This document shows, in pieces, positions 15,693 to 21,052 of a stretch of DNA of 36,629 nt. The position numbers were made by a program, and so were the translations under genes. How positions within the stretch are numbered: the first letter of the stretch is position 1; each line of letters begins with the position of its first letter. The notes under the pieces were generated by a model that was given only the letters and a program-made list of their open reading frames with translations, was not told the DNA's origin and did no database searches. The DNA comes from Gammaproteobacteria bacterium (GTDB taxonomy: Bacteria > Pseudomonadota > Gammaproteobacteria > Steroidobacterales > GCA-2729495): positions 1 to 36,629 of the forward strand of contig JAQWPD010000123.1 of assembly GCA_029245525.1 (NCBI GenBank), written 5' to 3'.

Positions 15693-16544
15693 ATGAACCG
15701 TCGACAGATACTGCTGGCAATGGCCGGGACAGGACTGGCTCATGCAGCTAATACTGCTAATGCAACAGCAACACCGACGCAAAACCTTGTTGGCAATAAG
15801 CTGCTTGACGCCTATGTCCGACTATCCGGTAGCTTCGATGACCGACTGATTATTTGGTGGATGGACGGCAAACAATACGCGGTGGTTAATGGTAAATCTC
15901 AAGCGCTATTCGGCATGAAGGTGGGCATGTTTCATCGCTTCTTCCAACAGACTGATGGCAATTTCAAGGTCGCTTTTTTTGAACTGACTTATTTTACCGA
16001 TCTTGATAGCGGTGTGCTGCTAAAGGAGTTCAAAAACCCCTTTACCGGAAAAACAAATCGGGTAAGACACACCCGCCTCGGCCCAGAGGTCCGCCTACTA
16101 ACAATGAATGGATTATCAAGCCCAGACAACCCTATGGTGAAGCAGTACTCATCAAGCCTCGGCCCTGCCCGTATTATTAACAACCAAGTCTGGGTTCCCA
16201 CTTCGGTAGAAGGCATTATTAAGTTCCCCAAGCCAACTGCGCCGGAAATACTGCTGAGCATTTACACCACGATAAATGGCAATCTGAGTGACGCCCTCGA
16301 CCGCGACAAGATGTCAGTACCCTGCTCGCTGGCATTCAACAACACACAACCCTGGATACCGTGGATGGGGCTTAAAGACCACCCAGGACATCTAATGGGA
16401 GTGGCAAATGGCTGCAAAATGGAATCAATGGAAGAACTGCCTGAGGACTATTTAGCCTGCGCGCGCGAAGTGCATCCGCGCTACATCAATGACCCTATTG
16501 CCGCGCTGAGCAGACAAACCCTGCTTATTAGAGAAAGTGCTTAG
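15693..16544 (+). CDS. DUF1838 family Tat-exported protein
   Basis: A 283-residue protein with a short twin-arginine signal (MNRRQILLAMAGTGLAHAA). The body matches DUF1838: FFELTYFTDLDSGVLLKEFKNP, then FTGKTNRV, and PWIPWMGLKDHPGHLMG near the C-terminus. The family has no known reaction; it is often found near oxidoreductases. The second copy in this window is at 31092-32096, sharing the L-TGE/W-NP-TG and PW-PWM blocks. The ATG at 15693 has GGAG upstream. It follows the Tat SDR by 50 bases, so the two products probably share a compartment and possibly a substrate. Confidence 0.85.
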   Translation: MNRRQILLAMAGTGLAHAANTANATATPTQNLVGNKLLDAYVRLSGSFDDRLIIWWMDGKQYAVVNGKSQALFGMKVGMFHRFFQQTDGNFKVAFFELTYFTDLDSGVLLKEFKNPFTGKTNRVRHTRLGPEVRLLTMNGLSSPDNPMVKQYSSSLGPARIINNQVWVPTSVEGIIKFPKPTAPEILLSIYTTINGNLSDALDRDKMSVPCSLAFNNTQPWIPWMGLKDHPGHLMGVANGCKMESMEELPEDYLACAREVHPRYINDPIAALSRQTLLIRESA

Positions 16545-16601
16545 GCTACGAGCCCATCAAGCACAGACGAATACTGTCGATATTTATCCAAAAAAACCTA
16601 T

Positions 16602-17357
16602 CTAACTGCCAGTTAAACTCAACAAAAATTCCTTACGGGTCTCAGGTGTTGTCTTAAATGCGCCGCCAAGTGCGGTGGTGGATGTCTCGCTGTTCGAATC
16701 CATAACACCTCTCGCTTTAACGCAATGATGGGTCGCAACGATGTGCACCGCAACGTCATCCGTTTCGAGTAGCGTCTGCAGTGCTATCAGTATCTGCTCT
16801 GTGAGTCGCTCCTGTACCTGCGGGCGCTGAGCAAAAAACCGAATAATTCGGTTGATCTTGGATAAGCCAATAACCTTTTTCTGCGGTATGTAAGCCACGG
16901 CTGCACAACCATCGATGGTAACGAAATGATGCTCACATGTGGATGACAGATTAACGCGACTGATCTTAATCATTTCGTCGACCTGCATTTTATTCTCAAT
17001 CACCGTGACTTTTGGAAAGCGCCGGTAGTCAAGCCCAGAGAAAATTTCCTCGACATACATCTTCGCTATGCGCCGCGGTGTATCCTGTAAACTATCGTCA
17101 CTGAGGTCGAGGGCCAATACCTGCATAATCTCTGTGAAACAGAATTCAATTTTTTGCTTCTGCTCGGCTCTGCTCAAACTATTTGGCAGCAGCGGCGTTT
17201 CAATCCCTCGGGCTTGCAGCGCATCGCGAACCAGCATCGCCTCTGGGCTAAGCTTTACCAGCATGCTACTCGTTGGCTCAGTGACGCTAAAACCCAGAGA
17301 ATTAACGGAAAGCTCTTTGGTAACGGCGGTGCTTGCGAGCGGATTCAAGTAGCTCAT
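16602..17357 (-). CDS. folE: GTP cyclohydrolase I (FolE)
   Basis: Type I GTP cyclohydrolase, 251 residues, converting GTP to 7,8-dihydroneopterin triphosphate for tetrahydrofolate. Zinc ligands and active-site residues are present: STCEHHFV (C141, H143/H144) and [10 protein letters not shown] (C212). The blocks [19 protein letters not shown] and [10 protein letters not shown] with [13 protein letters not shown] are nearly the E. coli sequence. The first 31 residues are extra relative to E. coli FolE, whose start aligns near M32 (MLVKLSPEA). However, the ATG at 17357 has AAGGGA 8 bases upstream, so the extension is likely translated. The gene is divergent from the hvfA-type cassette. Confidence 0.95.
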
Positions 17358-17486
17358 GCGAATAGTCCCTTCTAATAGTGTGTTATTTAGGCAGCTTCAG
17401 AAGACTATTCGCCCAGCAGCAGCAAAGGGTTTCACAACTGAGCCACAACAATATGAGTGCTTAGCCATTGTTTTGTATGAAAAAAA

Positions 17487-17500
17487 TTGATTACAGTCAA
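17487..17500. promoter_or_regulatory. Fnr/Anr-like box
   Basis: TTGATTACAGTCAA differs from the Fnr/Anr consensus TTGAT-N4-ATCAA at one position (G for A). The arms extend to a perfect ATTGA-N6-TCAAT inverted repeat (17486-17501). It is 130 bases upstream of folE and about 220 upstream of the hvfA-type gene, so it could serve either. Oxygen or nitric-oxide control is an inference from the motif. Confidence 0.4.
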
Positions 17501-17582
17501 TAATCCCCGTATTTGTGCAACTTTTTAATGTTGTTTACAGTCCATTCATTTGTCCTGCTTCGTCAGTGCAGTAACTCGCAAA

Positions 17583-17667
17583 CGCACCCTGTGATGCGCT
17601 ACTGTAAAGCCGGAGATTGGATGGACCTCCGGTGAGGTAGGCTCAGCAAAGCTGTGAGCGACTCACC
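17583..17667 (+). promoter_or_regulatory. Structured leader upstream of the hvfA-type gene
   Basis: Three stems can form: CGCA/TGCG (17583-17598), CCGGAG/CTCCGG (17610-17632) and GGTGAG/CTCACC (17631-17667). The last encloses an inner GCTCAGC-AAA-GCTGTGAGC hairpin (17641-17658). The second and third stems share two bases (17631-17632), so they compete. It ends 51 bases before the hvfA start. I do not recognise a known riboswitch family. A cis-regulatory RNA is possible; random folding cannot be excluded. Confidence 0.35.
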
Positions 17668-17718
17668 TTAGAAAAATCGACCTTGCCGGAATACGGCCTT
17701 ATATTACTGGAGTTAAAC

Positions 17719-17955
17719 ATGTCTAAATTGAAAATTGCTATTGGTGCTGCTGTCGTAACGGGACTGGGTATTGCTGGTGTAGCTAATGCTGAAGATAACG
17801 ACAAACTGTTCTCGATGGATGAGCTCTCTAGCGGTTATTTAACCGCTGGTGCTCACGAAGGCTCTTGTGGCGAAGGGAAATGTGGCGACAACAAAAAAGA
17901 TGACGATGACAAAAAAGATGGTGAAGGCGCATGCGGTGGCGACAAAGCTTCTTAA
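17719..17955 (+). CDS. hvfA: HvfA-type oxazolone/thioamide RiPP precursor (copper-binding)
   Basis: A 78-residue precursor. Residues 1-24 form a Sec signal peptide ending VANA. The segment FSMDELSSGYLTA (31-43) is the conserved leader-like part seen in HvfA peptides. It is followed by three EGxCG pentapeptides: EGSCG (47-51), EGKCG (52-56) and EGACG (69-73), separated by a Lys/Asp run. In Haemophilus, EGKCG Cys residues are converted by an MNIO enzyme to oxazolone/thioamide pairs that bind copper. Only one of the three motifs here is canonical. The ATG at 17719 has GGAG 6 bases upstream. The maturase genes follow immediately. The mature product should act in the periplasm. Confidence 0.88.
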   Translation: MSKLKIAIGAAVVTGLGIAGVANAEDNDKLFSMDELSSGYLTAGAHEGSCGEGKCGDNKKDDDDKKDGEGACGGDKAS

Positions 17956-17985
17956 GCATTACGTTTAAACGCATGAACTTCACCC

Positions 17986-18858
17986 GTGGAGACTAAATGC
18001 TCCAACAAACTATCGGCACCCTCTTTACCAGAGGGTGCCGGTCTTGGTTTAAGGCGCAGCCTTTTACCGGAACTGCTCGAGCAGCAGCCGGAAGCCGTTA
18101 GTTTTTTTGAGGTCGCGCCGGAAAACTGGATTAATGTCGGTGGCAGTTATGGCAAGAAGTTTCGGCAGCTTACAGAATGTAAGCCGCTGCTGTGTCATGG
18201 TCTATCCTTGTCTATTGGCAGTCCGGCGGCTCTCGATTTCGAATTACTAAAAAAGCTTAAAGATTTTTTTAAAACACACCAGGTCGCTTTATACAGCGAG
18301 CATCTGAGCTACTGCAGTGACCACGGTCATCTCTATGACCTTATGCCGCTCCCGTTCACTGATGAGGCGGTGCACTACGTTGCCGGACGAATCCGTCAGG
18401 TTCAGGATTTTCTTGAGCAACGTATCGCCATGGAAAATATTTCTTATTACGCCGCTCCCAGTCCGCATATGCAGGAGACGGCCTTCATAAATGCTGTATT
18501 GGAAGAGGCCGACTGCGACCTACTATTGGACGTGAATAACATTTACGTAAATAGCATTAACCATCGTTACAATGCAGAAGATTTTTTACTTGCTCTGCCT
18601 GCGGAACGGGTGCGTTACTTTCATATAGCCGGCCATTATGTTGAAGCCGAAGACATTCGTATCGACACCCATGGCGCTGCGGTCTGCAACCCCGTCTTTG
18701 AACTGCTGGATAAAGCCTACAACCACTTCGGTCCACTGCCGACATTGTTAGAACGCGATTTTAATATCCCTCCCCTGAAAGAACTATTAACCGAAGTTAA
18801 TCAAATCACTAAAATACAGTCCACTCATGGCAACACGGAGCGGCGAAAAATTGTCTGA
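17986..18858 (+). CDS. hvfB: HvfB-type MNIO (DUF692) RiPP maturase
   Basis: A 290-residue TIM-barrel multinuclear non-heme iron oxidative enzyme (DUF692/MNIO). The expected polar ligand set is visible along the barrel: H71 ([10 protein letters not shown]), E105-H106 (SEHLSY), E150-N151 (MENISYY), D182-N185 ([10 protein letters not shown]), H213 and H217 (FHIAGHY), D227-H229 (DTHG) and E256 (LLERD). It should oxidise Cys residues of the upstream precursor to oxazolone/thioamide. It acts in the cytoplasm. The start is GTG at 17986, 30 bases after the precursor stop, with no obvious ribosome binding site; the [10 protein letters not shown] block begins at residue 14, as usual. It overlaps the next gene by 32 bases. 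Confidence 0.92.
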
Positions 18859-19609
18859 CTTACGACAACAACAAGTGGCGTTCGCAGCACACATTCGCGA
18901 CCCCGAAGTGCACCCGCCACCAAACGATATCGAAGACCGTCGGATGACAATTTATCGTGAATTGTTTTTCAACAACATTAATGCGTTTTTAAGCGGGTAT
19001 TTCCCTATTGCAAAGTCAATAGTGGGCGATGAACGATGGGCTGTGTTAGTTCGTGGCTTTTATCGCGATCATGCAAGTCGCACCCCTTTATTTACCGAGC
19101 TCGCCTGCGAATTTCTAAACTACCTCGCCAACGAACGCATTGCGCCAAAAGATGAACCGCCTTTTATTACCGAACTTGCTCACTATGAGTGGGTTGAAGG
19201 CGCGCTAAACCTTGCCGCCGACCCAGAATCTGACGAAAAATTGCTGGATGGCGATCTGCTTAAGCAAGCACCTCAGGTGTCGCCGTTAGCATGGCTATTA
19301 AGCTACCATTGGCCTGTCCATGAAATCAGCGCTGCACAGCAACCCACGGCGGAATTAGATACGCCCATTCATTTTCTGGTTTACCGGAATGCTGTCGACC
19401 AAGTCGTATTCAACCGATTAAATACAATGAGTGCTTGCCTACTGCAACTGATCTATGGGCCGGACAACACCACTACAGGAAGTGCGGCACTCAAAATGCT
19501 GGCGCGGCAAATGCAGCATCCCGAAGAGGATAAGCTTATTTCTGCCGGAAGCACAATGCTCTCAGAATGGCGGGCAAAAAATATTATTCTCGGCACCCAC
19601 TCCGTTTAA
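18827..19609 (+). CDS. hvfC: HvfC-type (DUF2063) RiPP maturation partner
   Basis: A 260-residue protein. The N-terminal DUF2063 domain has [50 protein letters not shown] and [10 protein letters not shown], and the second half has [21 protein letters not shown]2063 proteins form a complex with the DUF692 enzyme and are thought to recognise the precursor. The gene overlaps the maturase by 32 bases, which indicates tight coupling. A DoxX-like membrane gene (hvfD), common in related operons, is not present downstream; the next gene is a convergent MATE transporter. Confidence 0.9.
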
Positions 19610-19711
19610 GAATTCGAAAGAATATACAGAAATTGTCGGGCTTTGCGGGCCAATGAGAGGGCATAAAAAACCATCATGAAACCACCTCGTATAACAGGTT
19701 AAGCGCTTTTT

Positions 19712-21052
19712 CTAGCCATGGCGCCGATGCCTGCGAATATAACTGCCGAGCCATACGTAACCGGCAACACCAATAACCATGTTGGCGGTAGCGCCAGCAA
19801 AAAATAACCCGCTCACACCCAGCCACCATTCGAGTAACAGCGCCAACGGCAGAAACACAAGCAATGCGCGGCATACTGAAACCAATACCCCCGGCAGCGG
19901 GAAGCCCATACCGTTAAAACCGGCGCACACTGACATCACCATGCCATAGCCAGCGTAGCTGAGAGCCATGATTCGCAGATACGTAACAGCAACCTCGCGA
20001 ATTTCAGTGGTCTCACTAAATAACGATGCCAGCGTCGGCGCTAGAAAGTACAGCACCACCGACATACCCAAGCCATAGCTAAGACAAAACTTGGCAATCA
20101 TTTTTCTCGCTTCCAGCATCCGGCCATGTTCGCCAGCCGCAAAATTCTGTCCCATGAACGGACTGGTTACCGCCGATACAGCGTAGAATGGTATCAATAC
20201 CAATGGCTCAATTCGGATACCCACACCAAAACCGGCAACAGCAACAACACCATAGCCTGCAATCATTGCAACGATAAGGCTATTGGCAATCGGCACCACG
20301 GTATTCGTCAGCATGGCAGGAGCGCCAATACGCAACATCTCAAGCCAAGATGAGCAAATTACCGCAAAGCTGGCAAAAGGCGTTGCAAATACCCGCAGCT
20401 TGAAATGCAAATACGCGATAGTGCCCGTCATAACAATAATATTAGACGTGAGTGTTGCTAAGGCAGCCCCCGCTATTTCAAGGCGGGGAAAGCCGAATAG
20501 TCCGAAAATCATTATAGGATCGAGGACAAGATTAACCAAAGCGGCCAAAGTAATGATCTTGCCCTCGAGCATTGAGTTACCGCGCGCGCGCATCGAAGCG
20601 AGGCAAATCCAGCACACCGCATTTACGGGTGCCGACCAATACCAAATACTCATGAAATCGGTAATCAACGGCATTAAATTATCGGTGGCACCGAGCGCGC
20701 GGAACAGCGGGTCGATGGTGAATAGACCAATCGCCACGACAACCAGCATCACAATAGCGGCAAGCATCACAGTATCGGTAGTTTGTCGGCGAACCATTAG
20801 CTGGTCTTTGCGTCCGGCCGCTCGCGATATAACCGATGCAGCACCCGCCTCAAAACCAATAATCACACTCGTCAGCAACCACAGTACCGGGAAACAAAAT
20901 GCAATAGCTGCCAGGGGCATATCGCCAAGGCGCGAGATGAAAAATAGATCTACCGCGTCAAAGGAGATAATAGCCACCAGCCCGAGTGCCATTGGCAGGG
21001 CCTGCTGACGCAGATGCTGCGGCACCGAGCCTGTGGTGAGATCTGTAGCCAA
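19712..21052 (-). CDS. MATE family multidrug/cation antiporter
   Basis: A 446-residue inner-membrane protein with about 12 helices. MATE features are the FISRLGDMPLAAIAFCFPV segment near the N-terminus, GFEAGAASVISRAAGRKD after helix 2, and the half-repeat equivalent GFGVGIRIEPLVLIPFYAVS with PFMGQNFAAG. MATE proteins export cationic compounds in exchange for H+ or Na+; the substrate is unknown. The start is TTG at 21052, supported by GGAG 8 bases upstream. The last residues (YIRRHRRHG) form a basic tail. It is convergent with the hvf cassette and divergent from the Rieske gene. Confidence 0.88.
   Translation of the reverse strand: MATDLTTGSVPQHLRQQALPMALGLVAIISFDAVDLFFISRLGDMPLAAIAFCFPVLWLLTSVIIGFEAGAASVISRAAGRKDQLMVRRQTTDTVMLAAIVMLVVVAIGLFTIDPLFRALGATDNLMPLITDFMSIWYWSAPVNAVCWICLASMRARGNSMLEGKIITLAALVNLVLDPIMIFGLFGFPRLEIAGAALATLTSNIIVMTGTIAYLHFKLRVFATPFASFAVICSSWLEMLRIGAPAMLTNTVVPIANSLIVAMIAGYGVVAVAGFGVGIRIEPLVLIPFYAVSAVTSPFMGQNFAAGEHGRMLEARKMIAKFCLSYGLGMSVVLYFLAPTLASLFSETTEIREVAVTYLRIMALSYAGYGMVMSVCAGFNGMGFPLPGVLVSVCRALLVFLPLALLLEWWLGVSGLFFAGATANMVIGVAGYVWLGSYIRRHRRHG

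Follow-up and report, generated by a model that had tools for sequence, protein, structure and literature searches.

A small hvfABC-type cassette divergent from folE in a gammaproteobacterium: probably a copper-peptide locus of a known and largely ordinary type

Introduction

The window analysed here, a stretch of 36,629 bases (contig C28 of a gammaproteobacterial genome of 2.28 Mb in 123 contigs, 98% complete), bears a short gene cassette that resembles hvfABC. This raises the question whether the cassette makes a copper-binding peptide of an already described kind, what its EGxCG motifs would become, and whether the neighbouring folE gene has any part in the system. We find that the locus is very probably an EGKCG/oxazolin-type (captophorin) RiPP cassette, in which HvfB and HvfC would make 5-thiooxazoles and the Sec-exported peptide would bind envelope copper. 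It is a genuine, intact and selected cassette of an already known type, largely ordinary, and it leaves the understanding of the family unchanged.

Results and Discussion

The window carries an intact hvfABC cassette

A preliminary description of this DNA had recognised an hvfABC cassette for a copper-handling peptide and, adjacent to it, a divergent folE gene. Both the positions of the open reading frames and the assignment were borne out by ORF calls and profile scores, with HvfB and HvfC clearly above the family cut-offs and the precursor narrowly so. The intact cassette occupies positions 17719-19609 of the plus strand, and the genes are as follows.

17719-17955, plus strand: hvfA-like precursor of 78 aa; ATG start preceded by GGAG; matches NF050137, is kept in the genus and has a low dN/dS
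17986-18858, plus strand: hvfB, MNIO (DUF692) peptide maturase; GTG start tentative; matches PF05114, NF003818 and PDB 3bww
18827-19609, plus strand: hvfC, RRE/DUF2063 partner (PME type 1); overlaps hvfB; start tentative, because the sister genome G002 lacks this ATG; matches PF09836, PF22106, NF050145 and PDB 3dee
16602-17357, minus strand: folE (GTP cyclohydrolase I), divergent neighbour by profile matches, with no demonstrated part in the hvf system

The gene downstream of hvfC is a MatE gene on the opposite strand. A profile search of the contigs found one PF05114 match in the genome, and a search of the same contigs revealed no second copy of the precursor. The comparison within the genus covers three genomes, namely the window genome, the sister G002 and G001; the cassette is also intact in G002, and the contig of G001 stops 30 codons into hvfB, which limits the comparison of its cassette to that part.

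The two enzyme components are readily classified. HvfB scores 435.1 bits with NF003818 (cut-off 360) and 350.5 bits with Pfam PF05114, and HvfC, which adjoins the MNIO gene, scores 287.2 bits with NF050145 (cut-off 142), besides its matches to PF09836 and PF22106. The best PDB relative of HvfB is 3bww (E 1.5e-71), MbnB entries being weaker, and HvfC matches 3dee with E 7.5e-11. In the PDB alignment the window stretches LDVNNIYVN and DTHG lie over the corresponding stretches of 3bww, and the two Asn (N-N) and D-T-H are invariant in the window HvfB and five aligned relatives. Residues N175, D242 and H244 of Haemophilus HvfB, ligands of site 3, are needed for activity (PMC13419390), and we infer that they map to these two stretches.

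The precursor passes the HvfA-family domain model NF050137 (NCBIfam) narrowly, at 19.7 bits against a cut-off of 19.5. When the same model was applied to seven related precursors, four passed (G002 with 22.1, L005, L012 and L014) and three stayed below the cut-off (G001 with 19.4, L022 with 19.1, L018 with 16.1). With the Haemophilus HvfA equivalog model NF050188 the precursor scores 28.7 bits, far below the cut-off of 95. It is thus a relative of HvfA and not an HvfA equivalog in the strict sense, and it is no chance ORF.

The three-motif core lies within the range of the family

The precursor is laid out as an apparent Sec signal (residues 1-24, placed by eye, boundary ANA/ED), a leader, LFSMDELSSGY, and a core in which a tandem pair of motifs is followed by a linker and a third motif. 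The claim that there are three EGxCG motifs, one of which is EGKCG and the others EGSCG and EGACG, agrees with the ORF translation.

17857-17886, plus strand: tandem pair EGSCG EGKCG, residues 47-56 (EGSCG 47-51, EGKCG 52-56), identical in three of three genus genomes
17923-17937, plus strand: third, isolated motif EGACG, residues 69-73; EGTCG in G001

G002 has the same three motifs as the window, and G001 has EGSCG, EGKCG and EGTCG together with five extra linker residues; the genus varies at position 3 of one motif and in the linker, and neither of the other two genomes has lost any of the three Cys. Lack of conservation of these Cys in close homologues, which the preliminary description had named as speaking against its proposal, was therefore not observed. 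Elsewhere in the family, a second genus (L005, L012, L014, L018) has precursors with 4-5 motifs, a mix of EGKCG, EGSCG and EGGCG, and the precursor of L022, from a third genus, contains EGSCG and EGGCG.

A wider census of named genomes took the best 80 of at least 573 loci and accepted as precursor any ORF that holds two or more E[GA]xCG motifs and ends in the stretch from 700 bases upstream of to 60 bases inside the hvfB match. This rule favours EG-type motifs, and a different ORF rule used in a first pass gave 61 precursors; moreover, L053 and L014 appear to represent one genome. A precursor ORF was present in 62 of these best 80 loci, with 403 EGxCG motifs in total, in which x is Lys 339 times, Ser 22, Ala 17, Gln 7, Asn 4, Met 4, Arg 3, Thr 3, His 2, Val 1 and Gly 1. 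At least one non-Lys motif occurs in 28 of the 62 precursors, and the window-like leader pattern F-x-M-x-x-L-x-x-G-Y (FSMDELSSGY in the window) in 23. The remaining 18 loci have no precursor ORF by the rule. In two of them (L052, L070) such an ORF lies at another place in the stretch, and in the other 16 it is absent from the fetched stretch, some of these stretches ending at a contig edge (that of L088 just upstream of hvfB); L087 and L115, both among the 16, have an irregular Cys peptide in its place.

The core had been described as non-canonical, and this did not hold: 64 of the 403 motifs in relatives are non-Lys, Ser and Ala are the commonest replacements, and Ala is processed by the homologous enzyme pair FonBC. 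The letters of the window motifs lie inside the known range of the family. A word-start literature search gave no match for EGACG, EGSCG or EGxCG; such a search misses EAACGEGACG, which is present in PMC12668002.

One might still suppose that the cassette is decaying and that its irregular core reflects relaxed selection, as two of the three window motifs are not EGKCG and three motifs is near the low end of the family (among the 62 named precursors, six have two EGxCG motifs and one has three). We give this idea hardly any credence and regard it as largely refuted. Against G002, hvfA shows dS 0.42 and dN 0.034 (dN/dS about 0.08), and the first 260 codons of hvfB give a dN/dS of 0.09, that is, both genes are under purifying selection; in addition, the genes are free of stops, the cassette is intact in G002, and non-Lys motifs are also found in five precursors of other genera in the family.

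Irregular precursors were also seen next to hvfBC in L067, L102, L103 and L108 (Methylobacter, Methylococcaceae), with motifs such as EMSCG, EGACG and EMKCG; those of L102 and L103 also have Met-rich linkers. These precursors stray further from EGKCG than the window precursor does.

The product is expected to contain 5-thiooxazoles

The preliminary description expected up to three oxazolone/thioamide pairs, one at each Cys. This was the first assignment published for HvfA, and the names in NCBIfam still carry it. We consider it very improbable for the window peptide: the HvfA modification has since been reassigned to 5-thiooxazole by two groups (PMC12668002, PMC13419390), including the original one, whose authors withdrew their oxazolone/thioamide assignment (PMC13419390), and the window HvfB scores 45.9 bits with the equivalog model of the methanobactin enzyme MbnB, far under its cut-off of 325. 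The expectation is therefore replaced by that of 5-thiooxazoles.

In the mechanism that we propose, HvfC would bind the leader of the 78-aa precursor and present it to the iron enzyme HvfB, which would oxidise the Cys of the EGxCG motifs with loss of 4 H each, giving 5-thiooxazoles; the modified peptide would then leave by Sec and bind copper in the envelope. For the modification and its chemistry, as well as for export and copper binding, we draw on the literature on homologues. Expression of three Microbulbifer genes, including that of an EGKCG precursor, led to a loss of 4 H per Cys, the choice of heterocycle being left open in the accessible text (PMC12538549). FonBC processes a two-repeat substrate in which both repeats have Ala at position 3 and also accepts Arg and Thr there, whereas Phe or Glu at this position severely impairs processing and Pro is tolerated at no position; Ser is not among the position-3 variants named in the text available (PMC12668002). 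By analogy, EGACG is an expected substrate, and EGSCG is a likely one, because Ser is small and FonBC accepts both Thr and Ala.

Which of the three motifs would be modified is a finer question. The tandem pair EGSCG-EGKCG is the most likely target. A one-repeat FonA construct is left unmodified by FonBC and a two-repeat construct is modified (PMC12668002), and the isolated third motif may therefore be skipped. It is also the variable motif in the genus (EGACG or EGTCG) and stands after a linker of varying length. A modification confined to the tandem pair, with EGACG as a vestige or a plain thiol, is thus worth considering, albeit somewhat doubtful. On the other hand, the E-G-x-C-G frame of the third motif is kept in three of three genus genomes, singly spaced EGKCG motifs occur in relatives (for example L062 and L059), and when one Cys of a Microbulbifer construct with two motifs was replaced by Ala, the remaining Cys was still modified, whichever of the two it was (PMC12538549). 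We thus hold that EGACG is probably modified too.

Comparison with known systems and the absence of DoxX

The oxazolin system HvfABC(X) of nontypeable Haemophilus influenzae has the gene order A-B-C, as the window cassette does. The two also share the families of the enzyme and its partner, the EGxCG core and an apparent Sec signal; they differ in that Haemophilus HvfA has three AEGKCGEGKCG repeats with six modified Cys and a DoxX-like HvfX (PMC13419390), whereas the window cassette has three motifs, a single EGKCG and no DoxX. The captophorins fontiphorin (fon, Fontimonas thermophila) and gonophorin (ngo) likewise depend on an MNIO and PME1 pair acting on EGKCG repeats, and the acceptance of Ala at position 3 by FonBC matches the window EGACG, although FonA itself has seven sites (PMC12668002). 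The Microbulbifer mmr cassette (mmrA-C) also combines an EGKCG-type precursor, an MNIO and a DUF2063 protein; its precursors contain five to eight Cys in EGKCG units as opposed to three Cys in the motifs of the window precursor, and the accessible text is silent on DoxX (PMC12538549). Bufferins Buf1/Buf2 are Sec-exported, are made with an MNIO and a DUF2063 protein and handle copper, as is proposed for the window, but their precursors are DUF2282 or 6/12-Cys proteins (PMC12452194), and the window HvfB, at 268.6 bits, is under the cut-off of 310 of the BufB equivalog model.

The preliminary description had stressed that no DoxX-like hvfD is present. The absence itself stands, as no DoxX gene adjoins the window cassette; the name does not, since in the Haemophilus operon the DoxX-like protein is named HvfX (PMC13419390). 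The sole DoxX-family gene found elsewhere in the genome lies on contig C63 and, in a tblastn comparison with the DoxX of a related cassette, gave nothing significant (lowest E 0.14). When a PF07681 protein from L012 was used as query, a match in the cassette region was found in 28 of 64 named loci with enough flank, and in 18 of 50 named loci with a precursor; both counts are lower bounds, because tblastn was run with this one query. In the second genus of the family DoxX is present at three of four loci (L012, L014, L018; not L005). DoxX is thus often absent from relatives, and its absence from the window cassette is unremarkable.

What makes the window cassette useful is that its lineage, a natural one whose precursor is very small, has Ser, Ala or Thr in place of the Lys of EGKCG; because of this, the cassette (78 aa, three Cys) is a handy small substrate for finding the residues that tune processing and copper affinity.

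folE is a neighbour in one genus

FolE is a metal enzyme, and the preliminary description had suggested that the cassette shares a control region with folE. The divergent order is kept in three of three genus genomes, and to this extent both the conservation of the arrangement and the adjacency hold. Outside the genus the arrangement was not seen: folE lies near hvf in none of the 60 named loci whose sequence reaches at least 3 kb upstream and 2 kb downstream, and no folE match was found beside hvf in L005, L012, L014, L018 and L022, where at most about 1.5 kb was searched on each side. The neighbourhood therefore looks genus-specific, and the fact that FolE is a metal enzyme gives no link to copper.

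Identity of the 361-nt intergenic region to G002 is 68/82 next to folE, 66/100 at 17441-17540, 39/50 at 17541-17590 and 111/127 at 17591-17718. Conservation of the last segment exceeds that of the middle (Fisher p 1.7e-4) and that of hvfB synonymous sites (p 1.5e-5), these p-values being optimistic, because the segment boundaries were set after the alignment had been viewed. The higher conservation next to each gene could, together with the kept order, be read as a sign that folE and hvfABC are one regulated pair which responds to a single metal signal by way of the intergenic region between them. We find this improbable: folE is absent from the vicinity of hvf in the 60 testable named relatives and from the searched flanks in other family genera, and the middle, 17441-17540, diverges at the level of hvfB synonymous sites, which favours two separate control regions. 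Neither the neighbourhood nor the intergenic comparison gave evidence of shared control, and beyond divergent adjacency within one genus nothing linked folE to hvf. The alignment suggests that both ends of the intergenic region are constrained and the middle is not, that is, two control regions and not one.

The genome has three FolE-family genes: that of the window, a 69% identical paralogue of the same subfamily on C15, and a distant one on C123, which presumably adjoins molybdopterin-type genes, to judge from ORF order and the sequences there.

Two conserved leaders at the ends of the intergenic region

The leader sequences are the parts of the locus that might hold something new. Their features are listed below.

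17591-17718, plus strand: hvfA 5' leader of 128 nt, conserved within the genus
17594-17635, plus strand: 13-codon ORF MRYCKAGDWMDLR in the hvfA leader
17631-17636 and 17662-17667, plus strand: invariant arms GGTGAG and CTCACC in the hvfA leader
17358-17412, minus strand: folE-leader hairpin ending at the folE start codon (ATG), which belongs to folE and not to hvf; -18.9 kcal/mol, z -3.27

The hvfA leader also holds GCCG/CGGC directly upstream of the ribosome site, and the GGUGAG/CUCACC arms appear in the fold or centroid of each of the three genomes. The small arm 17628-17676, hand-picked and folded for the window only, reached z -2.86. Taken whole, the leader does not fold better than its shuffled versions in any of the three genomes (z -0.66, -0.95, -1.05), and in the alignment fold of three complete leaders none of 49 pairs was changed on both sides and kept, for which reason we claim no structure. 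Nor do we claim translation of the 13-codon ORF, because it differs from that of G002 by two non-synonymous changes and one synonymous change and has no clear ribosome site. An Rfam search of 16500-20000 on both strands (E up to 10) gave two chance-level snoRNA matches far under their gathering scores and nothing else, and conservation of the hvfA leader does not extend to the next genus.

A sigma-70 scan gave two sites against 0.6 expected; the site at 17677-17705 is unlikely as the hvfA promoter, as almost no leader would remain.

The folE hairpin is formed by the arms GCGAATAGTC and GACTATTCGC and would cover the ribosome site. In the three genus genomes its z is -3.27, -3.28 and -4.57, and the outer stem folds in all three; one pair has undergone a compensatory change, and two others are disrupted, each in a single genome. 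The exact arms GCGAATAGTC and GACTATTCGC are absent around the two other FolE genes of the genome and one of G002. No counterpart was seen upstream of other family FolE genes among 15 loci (three of them from the genus itself, two not parsed and one cut by a contig end), but the filter used there also missed the window hairpin.

On the three genomes compared, the constrained 128-nt hvfA leader and the hairpin abutting the folE start codon are candidates for new elements. One could go further and propose that the hvfA leader is a genus-specific post-transcriptional switch, acting as a folded RNA or through the 13-codon ORF, through which translation of the copper peptide would respond to copper or thiol stress, and that the separate hairpin over the folE ribosome site controls GTP cyclohydrolase; we would give such a proposal only a small chance of being right.

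hvfBC genes beside nth and DUF1841

A separate arrangement came to light among order-level HvfB-family loci. In all 15 of those without an EGxCG ORF in the fetched stretch (L002-L004, L006-L009, L011, L013, L015-L017 and L019-L021, with at most about 1.5 kb on each side, L013 being the source of both queries), hvfBC stands beside nth (endonuclease III) and/or a DUF1841 gene. Such hvfBC genes, with the precursor elsewhere in the genome, may serve cluster miners more than the window cassette does. Of these 15 genomes, 11 have an HvfA-family domain match on another contig; none was found in the other four. In the best 80 of at least 573 named loci, nth occurs in 33 and DUF1841 in 13.
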